A stretch of 34,687 nt of DNA from Syntrophobacterales bacterium (GTDB taxonomy: Bacteria > Desulfobacterota > Syntrophia > Syntrophales > UBA5619): contig JAHYJE010000032.1 of assembly GCA_019429105.1 (NCBI GenBank), positions 1 to 34,687 of the forward strand. The letters are read 5' to 3'. Both the position numbers and the translations under genes were made by a program. Positions 12,763 through 17,106 of this stretch are shown here, piece by piece; positions within the stretch are counted from its first letter, which is position 1; every line of letters begins with the position of its first letter. Below the pieces are notes generated by a model that searched no databases, was not told the origin of the DNA, and was given only the letters and a program-made list of their open reading frames with translations.

Positions 12763-14121
12763 TTATTTCTTCTTTTTCAGGATCGGGTCATTTTCATACC
12801 CCAGCGCTTTCCAGTCAAGCTTCCCATGGGAGCCATGGCAGGCCGTGCAGCGGAAGGCCTGCTCTTTGGGGGCAACCATGTGGTTGACAGGCATTGCCAT
12901 ACTGGTTTCCACAAAGCCGTATTTTCCACTGTAGGGCTGGCCGCCGGCCTTCATTCCTTCTTCAATCGCCTTGTCCCAGTTGAAGTCTTTCCAGTAGCCG
13001 TTAAATAATTTTGCAAAAGCCATGGTGTTGTTGCCGGAGTCATAGGGCTGTTTCCCCCGCATGACCTTGAAGGGCATGAGCTTGGAATTCTTGTCGAAAC
13101 GATTGCCCTGCGGGCTATTTAATTTGACAACCTTTGCCGGGTTGATCTTGTCGCCGGGTAGAATTCTCTCGGCCTTGCCGTTGTACCAAAGCAGTTCCGG
13201 AGCGAAGTTTTTATTCCATTTGAATTCGCCCTTTATTTTCAGATAATTATCCATGCCGAAGGCATCCTTCTTCGGTTTGATGTTTTTGCCGGCTTTTGAC
13301 CAGTCCCACCAAACCTTGGTAGGCAGGCTTTTGGCGATTGTCGGGATGTGGCAGGCCTGGCAGGCTACCTTCGCGATGTGCTTTTCCACAAACTGATTTT
13401 TATGAATTTTGGCATCACTATGACAATCGGTGCAGGCGATGCGCTCAGCATTGCTGCCGGCAATCGTCAGCGATTGTCCCTTTATTGCATGCTTCTCGGC
13501 CGAGTGACACCCGGTGCATTCCATCTTTGCCTGGCCGCCCATGTGCACATCAATCTCCGCGGTCGGATTGGTCAGGGAGGAGTCCAGATCGCCGTGTTTA
13601 ACATGATCGCCGCCGCCCCCGTAGAAGTGGCAGGAGCCGCACGATTTTCGCGAAGTTGCCCCTACTTTCAGGGCGAGCTTTGCCAAATCGAGCTTCGGAT
13701 CCGGCTGAACGGCGGGAGACACCTTTTTGTACGAACCGGTTGTGTCGTGGCAGGCGAGACAATCGACATTTTCGGCCTTGGAGAAGTCGTAGCTGCCATC
13801 CTTCCAGTCGTAGCCGGCATGACAAATGGTGCAACCGGGCCAGTTGCCGGGAACGGCCAGGCAAAAGTTGTTGATGACGTTCTTCTTGCCTAACTCCATC
13901 TTCTTTCCGTTTACATCCTGTTCTTTAGACCATTTCCAGTGCGTTGTCTTCATTAAATCGGCGGCCTCCTTGTCGTGGCACTCCAGACATTTTGCGGTAA
14001 CCTCCTGGCCGCTTTTAAAAGTGGCGCCTTCGACAAACTGGGCGTGGTCAACCTCGGCGAAGGCAGTGGAAGCTAAGACTGCACCTAAAAAGGCTGCCAC
14101 CGCAAGAATCGTAATTCTCAT
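12763..14121 (-). CDS. Octaheme c-type cytochrome, tetrathionate-reductase (OTR) family
   Basis: 452 residues; the ATG (14121-14119) has GGAGGGAGG just upstream on the minus strand. Residues 1-22 (MRITILAVAAFLGAVLASTAFA) form a Sec signal peptide, so the protein is periplasmic. Eight CxxCH haem-binding motifs are visible: CLECH, CTICH, CLACH, CGSCH, CTGCH, CTDCH, CQACH and, after a gap of about 200 residues rich in Lys and Trp, CTACH. The haem number, length and late eighth haem fit the OTR family. The Shewanella member reduces tetrathionate, nitrite and hydroxylamine in vitro and has one Lys-ligated active-site haem. The physiological substrate here is unknown. The gene is monocistronic, with its own terminator. 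Confidence 0.87.
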   Translation of the reverse strand: MRITILAVAAFLGAVLASTAFAEVDHAQFVEGATFKSGQEVTAKCLECHDKEAADLMKTTHWKWSKEQDVNGKKMELGKKNVINNFCLAVPGNWPGCTICHAGYDWKDGSYDFSKAENVDCLACHDTTGSYKKVSPAVQPDPKLDLAKLALKVGATSRKSCGSCHFYGGGGDHVKHGDLDSSLTNPTAEIDVHMGGQAKMECTGCHSAEKHAIKGQSLTIAGSNAERIACTDCHSDAKIHKNQFVEKHIAKVACQACHIPTIAKSLPTKVWWDWSKAGKNIKPKKDAFGMDNYLKIKGEFKWNKNFAPELLWYNGKAERILPGDKINPAKVVKLNSPQGNRFDKNSKLMPFKVMRGKQPYDSGNNTMAFAKLFNGYWKDFNWDKAIEEGMKAGGQPYSGKYGFVETSMAMPVNHMVAPKEQAFRCTACHGSHGKLDWKALGYENDPILKKKK

Positions 14122-14245
14122 AGTAATTTCCTCCCTCCATTAATTTGTAGTTTTCAAATCCGGCGTGTCTAACTGCTAAAAAAGCTGCTACTTTTTTGGG
14201 AGTGTTGATTGGGTAGTTTCTGAACATATATTAGCTAATTATGCA

Positions 14246-14378
14246 AGAGCCAATTGCAAAACTATTTGTCATTCCCGAATGCTTCTATCGGGAATACGGT
14301 TTTTCAAGCAGTTAGAACCAGATTCCCGCTTAAAATCATTGCGGGAATGACAGAATGTGAGAGTTTTGCAATTACCTC
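14246..14378. repeat. Palindromic MITE-like element, copy A
   Basis: The ends are inverted copies: GAGCCAATTGCAAAACT at the left and, reversed, GAGGTAATTGCAAAACT at the right. Next to each end is TGTCATTCCCG. Inside are two small hairpins, TCCCGA...TCGGGA and TCCCGC...GCGGGA. A second copy lies at 32584-32759 in the opposite orientation. No coding capacity is evident. It fills the leader between the divergent cytochrome and MgtE-like genes and creates a false N-terminal extension of the downstream open frame. Confidence 0.8.
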
Positions 14379-14517: not shown

Positions 14518-15792
14518 ATGGCAAACATGATCCCTAATCAGCATAATTCGGAACTCTTTATATTTTTCAGTCAATTGCTTGGCGAAAAGATAATTGATCC
14601 GAGGGGAAATTCTGTAGGCAGGCTCCTTGACCTGATCGTCAATATTGACGAAACGTATCCCCATGTTACGGGTGCGATGCTGCGTCTGGAAAAGAACAGG
14701 AAAATCCGTTTATTTTCGAGTCAGGGCTTTTATTTTACGGATGGTCATTTTACGGCAAGTTTTGCCGACGATGATTTGCCTCCGGATAAGGAACTTGCCG
14801 CCAGCGAACTCATGCTCAAAGAGGCGCTTCTGGATAAGCAGGTGGTTGACACCGATGGGGCGAAAATCAGGCGCGTTAACGACCTGCAGTTTCTGATAGC
14901 GAATAACGAGTTGTACCTTGTTCATGTAGATGTCGGTTTTCATGGACTCTTGCGACGTGTCGGCCTTAAAACTCTGTTCGGTTTTGTCCTCCGGGCCCTT
15001 TTTGATTATGAGATGTCCGACCAGCTCATTTCCTGGAAGTTTGTGCAGATGATCTCCTCTCCGGATCTGTTGCAATTGACGATCGCCCAGAATCGTCTTG
15101 GCCAACTGCACCCAGCAGATCTCGCTGATATCATTGAGGACCTTGATATCCATCAGCGCAAAGCCGTCTTTAACGCGCTGGACGTCGAAACAGCGGCGGA
15201 AACGCTCGAGGAGACTGATCCCAAGGTGCAGGTCAGCCTGATTGAGGGTCTTTCCACCGAAGATGCATCTGATATTATTGAGGAGATGTCTCTTTCTGAG
15301 GCAGCCGATCTCCTTGGCGATCTTTCGCCGGAAAAGGTCGAAGGCATTCTGAATGAAATGGAAAAGGATGCGGCCGACGACATGAAGGAACTTCTTGCCC
15401 ATCCGGAAGAGAAGGCCGGTGGGTTGATGACCACAGCTTATCCCAGCTTTTCCCCGAACTGCACCGTCGCGGAGGCTCTGCAAGCCATTCGCGCTGACGC
15501 GGACGATCTCGATCTTATTTACTATAGTTACGTTGTGGACGAGCAAGAGCATATCCTCGGCGTGGTTTCCCTGCGGGAGCTGCTTGCGGCGGAGCCGGAG
15601 GCTGCGCTCTCCGGGATCATGGATACGCGGGTAATCTTTGTCAATGTTGAAGAAAAAAAAGGGCAGATCGCTGACGATTTTTTCAAGTATGGCCTGCAGG
15701 CGATTCCTGTCGTGGATGATGATGAACAACTCAAAGGAGTTATTCTATTTAAAAATCTCCTTGAAGTAATAGCGGCGAAACTGGGAAGATAG
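14518..15792 (+). CDS. Soluble PRC-barrel / MgtE_N / CBS protein
   Basis: 424 residues from the ATG at 14518 (GGAGG at 14502-14506). The frame is open to 14254, but that part lies in repeat A. Two PRC-barrel-like segments (about 15-80, DPRGNSVGRLLDLIVNID; about 95-160, DTDGAKIRRVNDLQFLI) precede an MgtE intracellular N-domain (about 197-300: LHPADLADIIEDLD, LSTEDASDIIEEMSLSEAA, and AGGLM at its end). Two CBS modules follow (about 300-424). The MgtE membrane domain is absent. In MgtE these acidic N and CBS domains sense cytosolic Mg2+ and gate the channel. Here a stand-alone sensor is followed 30 nt later by an NRAMP-like transporter, which suggests it regulates that protein (inference). Confidence 0.85.
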   Translation: MANMIPNQHNSELFIFFSQLLGEKIIDPRGNSVGRLLDLIVNIDETYPHVTGAMLRLEKNRKIRLFSSQGFYFTDGHFTASFADDDLPPDKELAASELMLKEALLDKQVVDTDGAKIRRVNDLQFLIANNELYLVHVDVGFHGLLRRVGLKTLFGFVLRALFDYEMSDQLISWKFVQMISSPDLLQLTIAQNRLGQLHPADLADIIEDLDIHQRKAVFNALDVETAAETLEETDPKVQVSLIEGLSTEDASDIIEEMSLSEAADLLGDLSPEKVEGILNEMEKDAADDMKELLAHPEEKAGGLMTTAYPSFSPNCTVAEALQAIRADADDLDLIYYSYVVDEQEHILGVVSLRELLAAEPEAALSGIMDTRVIFVNVEEKKGQIADDFFKYGLQAIPVVDDDEQLKGVILFKNLLEVIAAKLGR

Positions 15793-15822
15793 CACCAAAA
15801 TGGATGAGGAAGGCGCTGAAGG

Positions 15823-17106
15823 ATGGGCAATGCGGTCAATAAAAGGGTGGGTGGTTTTTTGCACGCATTTTTCGGCGCCCGCCGCTGGCGGAAGCTTTGG
15901 CTTTTTTTCGCCCTTATCGGGCCGGGAATCATTACCTCCAATGTTGACAACGATGCCGGCGGAATAACAACCTACTCGCTGGCCGGCGCCGATTACGGCC
16001 TTTCGCTTTTGTGGACGCTAATCCCGATTACCGGGGTGCTGATCGTAATCCAGGAGATGTGCGCCCGGATGGGTGTGGTTTCGGGTAAGGGTTTATCCGA
16101 CTTGATCCGGGAGCGTTTCGGGGCGCGGATTACCTTTTACCTGATGATCGCCCTTTTTCTGACGAATCTCGGCAACACGATCTCCGAATTTGCCGGAATC
16201 GCGGCGAGCATGGAGATTTTCGGCGTCAGCAGATATATATCCGTGCCTGTGAGCGCGGCTTTTGTCTGGTGGCTGGTGGTGAAGGGGAATTACAAATCCG
16301 TCGAGAAGGTATTTCTCTTTGCCTGTGTTATTTATTTTTCTTATATAATCTCCGGCTTTATGGGGAATCCTGACTGGAGTGCAGTGGGTTCGGCATTCCT
16401 GACCCCGGTATTCAGAATGGATGCCGGTTTTCTGGCGATGGTTGTGGCGCTGGTCGGGACGACGATCGCCCCCTGGATGCAGTTTTACCTGCAATCGTCC
16501 GTTGTGGACAAGGGACTGAAGGCCGACGACTATCCCTTTACCAGGCTGGATGTGATCTTCGGGTCGGTTATGGTCAATGTGATCGCCTTTTTTATCATCC
16601 TGCTGTGCGCGATGACGCTCTTCAAAAACGGGATCCGGATCGAAAGCGCCGTTGACGCCGCCCAAGCTCTGGCCCCGCTCGCTGGCCAGTACGCGGCGCT
16701 GCTTTTCGCGTTCGGACTTCTGAACGCCTCCCTGTTTGCCGCCTCGATCCTGCCCATTTCCACCGCTTATACGATCTGCGAGGCCTTCGGCTGGGAATCG
16801 AGTCTCGACCGAAAGTTTCTGCAGGCCCCCCAGTTTTACAGCCTCTACACGCTGATGATTTTTCTGGGCGCGGGAATAATCCTCATGCCGGACATGCCGC
16901 TTATCCGTATTATGTTTTATTCACAGGTCATCAACGGGGCGCTCCTGCCGGTCATTCTTGTCTTCATGCTGCTTTTGGTAAACGACAAGCGCATTATGGG
17001 AAAGTATGTCAATGGTCCGATAATGAATGGCATTTCCTGGTTTACGGTTGCCGTATTGACCTTATTGTCGTTGGCAATGATATTTTTCTCACTGCTGGGC
17101 ACGTAG
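15823..17106 (+). CDS. NRAMP-related divalent metal (possibly Mg2+) transporter
   Basis: 427 residues, about 11 membrane helices; the ATG at 15823 follows AGGAAGG (15807-15813). GPGIITSNVDNDAGG (33-47) corresponds to the TM1 motif that is DPGN in classical NRAMPs; here it reads DNDAG. The TM6 motif usually ending MPH is TTIAPWM, with Ala216 where the metal-binding Met sits and Trp218 in place of His. Loss of the soft Met ligand is the hallmark of NRAMP-related magnesium transporters (established knowledge). The upstream MgtE_N/CBS gene agrees with Mg2+ transport. The substrate is inferred; Mn2+ or another hard cation remains possible. The stop abuts the convergent lepB stop with no space for a terminator. 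Confidence 0.85.
   Translation: MGNAVNKRVGGFLHAFFGARRWRKLWLFFALIGPGIITSNVDNDAGGITTYSLAGADYGLSLLWTLIPITGVLIVIQEMCARMGVVSGKGLSDLIRERFGARITFYLMIALFLTNLGNTISEFAGIAASMEIFGVSRYISVPVSAAFVWWLVVKGNYKSVEKVFLFACVIYFSYIISGFMGNPDWSAVGSAFLTPVFRMDAGFLAMVVALVGTTIAPWMQFYLQSSVVDKGLKADDYPFTRLDVIFGSVMVNVIAFFIILLCAMTLFKNGIRIESAVDAAQALAPLAGQYAALLFAFGLLNASLFAASILPISTAYTICEAFGWESSLDRKFLQAPQFYSLYTLMIFLGAGIILMPDMPLIRIMFYSQVINGALLPVILVFMLLLVNDKRIMGKYVNGPIMNGISWFTVAVLTLLSLAMIFFSLLGT

Follow-up and report, generated by a model that had tools for sequence, protein, structure and literature searches.

The closest described systems are the Nramp-related Mg transporters (NRMTs) and the channel MgtE. The NRMT motif consists of DxxG in TM1 and TxxA/T in TM6, replacing DxxN-AxxM (PMC8806188). 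In Shin et al. 2014 (PMC4072509), most NrmT genes adjoin a gene for a protein resembling the MgtE N-terminal cytoplasmic domain, cytoplasmic feedback control or chaperone activity is speculated for this accessory protein, and the M-box riboswitch marks high-affinity Mg transporters. The same study reports that the A. capsulatum transporter gave full rescue of a Mn2+-uptake mutant and only weak rescue of a Mg2+ mutant, and that the A. capsulatum accessory gene gave no better Mg2+ rescue, a result compatible with an inhibitory sensor, because inhibition would not improve rescue. The loci given there as NrmT plus an MgtE-cytoplasmic-domain ORF (C. acetobutylicum Ca_c0685 and Ca_c3329; A. capsulatum Acp2977) carry the same gene pair as the locus analysed here, and the Acp2977 locus has the sensor gene first, as does ours. 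The later literature that we found does not return to the question, raised in 2014, of what the MgtE-like gene next to NrmT does, and our search found no literature linking PRC-barrel, MgtE, and Nramp.

Both the gene pair, which is common, and the feedback idea have been in print since 2014 (PMC4072509). New here are the scale and statistics of co-occurrence, the mutual exclusion with MgtE, the survey of Mg2+ ligands, and the folding result; PRC domains, too, go unmentioned in the passages of that study that were consulted, and the operon of our locus lacks an M-box.

The window, the whole 34,687-nt stretch of DNA that was analysed, contains the sensor and transporter genes in a shared reading frame (Table 1). 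ORFs and Pfam matches agree with the original prediction that a gene for a soluble PRC-PRC-MgtE_N-CBS-CBS protein lies 30 nt ahead of an NRAMP-fold gene, and the two genes are probably co-transcribed. An Rfam search of the window gave no match, M-box included. The leader of the pair contains a MITE-like element, 140 nt 5′ of the sensor gene, with the ends GAGCCAATTGCAAAACT and AGTTTTGCAATTACCTC and ~40 copies of 74–100% identity in its own genome; the pair's promoter could lie within this element or be disturbed by it.

Table 1. Coordinates of features at the sensor–transporter locus (positions in the window)
Feature	Position	Strand	Description
Multihaem cytochrome c gene	12763–14121	−	Divergent from the pair; Cytochrome_cB E 4e-64, CXXCH repeats
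σ70-like promoter candidate	14205–14232	+	9/12 positions; alone no better than chance
MITE-like palindromic repeat	14247–14378		Leader of the pair; ~40 genome copies; no known riboswitch
Sensor gene	14518–15792	+	ATG 14518, stop TAG 15790–15792; 424 aa; ORF, Pfam, 2yvy/2zy9 similarity
Mg4-equivalent codons	15295–15300, 15754–15759		S260, N413
Intergenic spacer	15793–15822	+	30 nt; separates sensor stop from transporter start
NRMT-type NRAMP (SLC11) transporter gene	15823–17106	+	ATG 15823, stop 17104–17106; 427 aa

Sequence, fold, and site motif all identify the transporter of the window as an NRMT. In particular, its Nramp domain is matched at E 1.8e-100 (Pfam); its best PDB match is EleNRMT (7qia, E 5e-122), with canonical DraNramp at E 6e-28; and fold comparison gives Z 51.1 and 45% identity for EleNRMT, and Z 46.8 and 25% identity for canonical Nramp. 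The transporter has in common with EleNRMT of Eggerthella lenta (7qia/7qji; PMC8806188) the NRAMP fold, the DxxG-TxxA motif, and a Trp for the TM6 His. With canonical Nramp/MntH proteins (DraNramp, EcoDMT) it shares fold and overall topology, but their DPGN and their TM6 Met and His are all replaced. Specifically, the site motif is D44-A-G-G47 in TM1 and T213-T-I-A216 in TM6. Alignment to DraNramp and EleNRMT bears out the predicted replacement of the TM6 Met and His (by A216 and W218) and the predicted change of DPGN, but not the predicted reading "DNDAG", whose register is two residues early, starting at an extra residue, Asp42; the true replacement is D44-A45-G46-G47. An M-box on the operon is not required for NRMT membership. 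In a tree of 125 sequences, the transporter falls within Syntrophaceae, nearest to that of a Syntrophus aciditrophicus-like MAG (88% identity).

Two acidic residues of the transporter are absent from EleNRMT and DraNramp: Asp42, in or near TM1a, is Asp in 123/123 relatives, and Glu78, in or near TM2, is Glu in 117/123 relatives and mostly Asp in the others. EleNRMT has Gly and Met at these positions. The two residues possibly add a second site for cations to the inner vestibule. Asp42 was also considered as a mark of sensor dependence and was rejected: two Bacillota loci (L158, L160) carry the EleNRMT-like Gly yet have the sensor, so Asp42 is not a marker of pairing.

The sensor comprises two PRC-barrel domains (residues ~14–180; Pfam E 2.7e-6), MgtE_N (197–298; E 1.2e-26), and a CBS pair (~300–420; E 8.5e-17); Pfam detects no membrane domain in it, the MgtE membrane domain PF01769 being absent. 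Residues 192–423 resemble, in sequence and fold, the MgtE_N and CBS pair of the T. thermophilus MgtE cytosolic domain (2yvy, Z 27.5, rmsd 1.9 Å; 2zy9, Z 27.3). Unlike T. thermophilus MgtE, the sensor is a separate soluble protein, with PRC domains added and with the plug helix and channel missing.

The Mg2+ ligands of MgtE, mapped from the sites in PMC5882242, were surveyed in 108 sensors. MgtE residues E59, D91/D247, D95, and D226/D250 correspond to E228, S260/N413, D264, and G392/E416 of the window's sensor. All 108 sensors have Asp at the Mg6 ligand (D95), and the Mg7 ligand (E59) is Glu or Asp in 94/108. At the Mg4 pair (D91/D247), 63 sensors carry D/D and 35, the window's among them, carry S combined with N, S, or G, mixed cases being few; because S pairs with N, S, or G in these 35, the two Mg4 ligands were lost together, a sequence pattern that suggests retention of the contact between MgtE_N and CBS domains while one Mg2+ site is dropped. 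The Mg5 ligands are mostly altered across the family, and the plug helix, with Mg2 and Mg3, is missing, only 0–19 residues (most commonly 2–3) following the equivalent of T. thermophilus residue 255. The window's sensor thus retains the Mg6 and Mg7 ligands, has lost Mg4, and has an altered Mg5 (G392/E416), and so keeps the Mg2+ machinery in part, not whole. ATP sensing of the TtMgtE kind is made less likely for this sensor by a further substitution: Leu393 stands in place of Phe227, which TtMgtE needs to bind ATP (PMC5529423).

The original prediction, which took the two genes for partners, had called for a survey of how often they are neighbours, and the neighbourhood proved very strongly conserved: the genes lie on the same contig, less than 1 kb apart, in 54/64 same-phylum genomes, and the sensor accompanies the transporter at 74/74 and 28/28 loci elsewhere. 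In the phylum survey, which covers 297 genomes, related and so not independent, and uses an NRAMP match cut-off of E 1e-40, 66 genomes have an NRAMP match, joined in 64 of these 66 by a sensor of full or nearly full length; 2 genomes have the NRAMP match only, 1 the sensor only, and 230 neither. The two NRAMP-only exceptions (G119, G005) encode proteins 32–33% identical to the window's transporter, without the NRMT TM1 motif. The further surveys comprise genome_contigs, with 80 loci from at least a dozen phylum-level lineages and the sensor present at all 74 judgeable ones, and 299 Bacillota genomes searched with EleNRMT, where all 28 loci found have the sensor just upstream; combined, they give a sensor at 102/102 judgeable loci. 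Both the similarity matches and the gene pairing are far beyond chance.

The arrangement of the pair varies. Among the 64 genomes, 41 have a sensor-first tandem, 9 have convergent genes (G099, G179, G268, G226, G064, G174, G154, G203, and G027; e.g. loci L034, L038, and L045), 4 have the transporter first, and 10 have the genes on different contigs. Some of these last 10 are contig breaks and some are truly unlinked, since the transporters of L046 and L047 have no sensor within ~3 kb. Convergent genes share no mRNA, although they are neighbours still, and the convergent and unlinked pairs together argue for an association that is more than operon hitch-hiking. At one Bacillota locus (L162:109–1483), the sensor is split into two ORFs beside the NRMT gene, as reported for C. 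acetobutylicum. No natural sensor–transporter fusion was found among the loci examined; long open frames in G146 and G203, considered as fusions, turned out to be separate genes. Tree distances of sensor and transporter correlate with r 0.80 over ~104 pairs, a value not corrected for the species tree.

Because the two genes share a frame, the stops between them could be read as glycine and the pair folded as one chain, in which the glycine linker is artificial and the CBS dimer cannot be displayed. AlphaFold gave pLDDT 90.8 and pTM 0.76 for the window's read-through pair (862 residues; 147 rows, 21 of them identically paired) and pLDDT 90.1 and pTM 0.76 for a divergent Bacillota read-through pair. 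By our own arithmetic (d0 ~9.9 Å), a pTM of ~0.55 would be expected if both halves were well folded but their relative position were unknown. The value of 0.76 exceeds this estimate and so points, if indirectly, to a fairly definite placement of sensor and transporter relative to each other, which is suggestive of physical docking of the sensor on the transporter.

We consider it rather probable that the pair is a Mg2+ importer with a feedback sensor acting in trans. The two genes would constitute a two-protein Mg2+ uptake system, in which the NRMT would be an importer of the NRAMP fold whose metal site, widened and free of Met, admits Mg2+ in partly hydrated form; import of partly hydrated Mg2+ by the window's NRMT would follow from its NRMT membership and the published EleNRMT work. 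The sensor would be a detached MgtE cytosolic Mg2+ sensor that has gained PRC-barrel domains at its N-terminus and lost the plug helix. At high cytosolic Mg2+, the ion would bridge MgtE_N and the CBS domains and the sensor would compact; docked on the transporter from the cytoplasmic side, it would then impede inward opening or release, as negative feedback in trans. We infer that Mg2+ is the substrate, judging from the transporter's relationships, that the sign of regulation is negative, and that the PRC domains are the docking part. Counting against this reading are the A. capsulatum results described above, the loss of several Mg2+ sites and of Phe227 from the sensor, the absence of an M-box from the window's operon, and the absence of fusions among the loci examined. 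The stronger formulation, in which we have about equal belief and disbelief, is that the sensor is an obligate but dissociable subunit, a detector of cytosolic Mg2+ that gates, in trans, a secondary transporter of the APC/LeuT fold, so that a channel's regulatory module has been re-used on an unrelated transporter, and that in many bacterial lineages the pair takes the place of MgtE as a unit.

The link to Mg2+ is supported by NRMT membership, by an either/or distribution with MgtE, and by the M-box leaders of relatives. Across the 297 genomes, 5 combine the pair with the MgtE membrane domain, 59 have the pair only, 167 MgtE only, and 66 neither (odds ratio 0.03, p 3e-21, without phylogenetic correction). 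The same pattern recurs within eight families (f2, f11, f15, f20, f23, f43, f44, and f50), so the exclusion is not one old split. M-box riboswitches occur in 14/297 same-phylum genomes, 7 of the 14 with the M-box just upstream of the pair, and at 10/52 further loci scanned; a fast search found none in the window's own genome, and none is present among the loci scanned in the window's 64-row half of the tree.

The main rival to Mg2+ import is that the pair transports Mn2+ and that the sensor's specificity is different or broader. In this account, to which we give a minor share of our belief, the pair imports Mn2+, or Mn2+ and Mg2+, the sensor answers Mn2+ or general divalent load, and its MgtE-like part reflects ancestry rather than Mg2+ specificity. 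The A. capsulatum NrmT, which has an adjacent sensor and no M-box, showed the full Mn2+ and weak Mg2+ rescue noted above (PMC4072509); the window's operon likewise lacks an M-box, and its clade has lost Mg4; and EleNRMT and NRMT-like EcoDMT mutants still carry Mn2+ (PMC8806188). Set against this, however, are the either/or distribution with MgtE, a metal site closely identical to that of EleNRMT, and the content of the window's own genome. Rated 100% complete, that genome encodes neither CorA nor an MgtE membrane domain, no P-type ATPase in it reaches the cut-off for MgtA, and the pair supplies its sole NRAMP and sole MgtE_N protein. A ZnuA/MntA-type binding protein, also encoded there, could serve Mn2+ or Zn2+.

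Somewhat less probable again is that the sensor acts as an activator, or as an assembly or stability subunit on which the transporter depends for its surface expression or turnover, rather than as a Mg2+-gated inhibitor. PRC-barrel domains are often protein-docking folds. Such a role would agree with that tendency, with co-occurrence that is near-obligate even where the genes are unlinked, and with Mg2+ ligands that are kept just partly. It is harder to reconcile with the invariance of the Mg6 ligand in all 108 sensors and with the report that the C. acetobutylicum transporters needed no accessory ORF to function in B. subtilis (PMC4072509). That the pair merely reflects inherited operon structure, with two independent Mg2+-related proteins under common regulation, is very improbable: most pairs do form one operon, some under one riboswitch, and the tree-distance correlation carries no species-tree correction, but both genes are retained in convergent, NRAMP-first, and unlinked arrangements, and pTM in two divergent pairs is above the estimate for unplaced halves.

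If, as we favour, the sensor gates the transporter in response to Mg2+, the sensor module would be movable between unrelated transport folds, and the gating would account for how NRMTs are kept from Mg2+ overload. The distribution of the pair points to organisms, the window's included, in which it is the only recognised Mg2+ importer.
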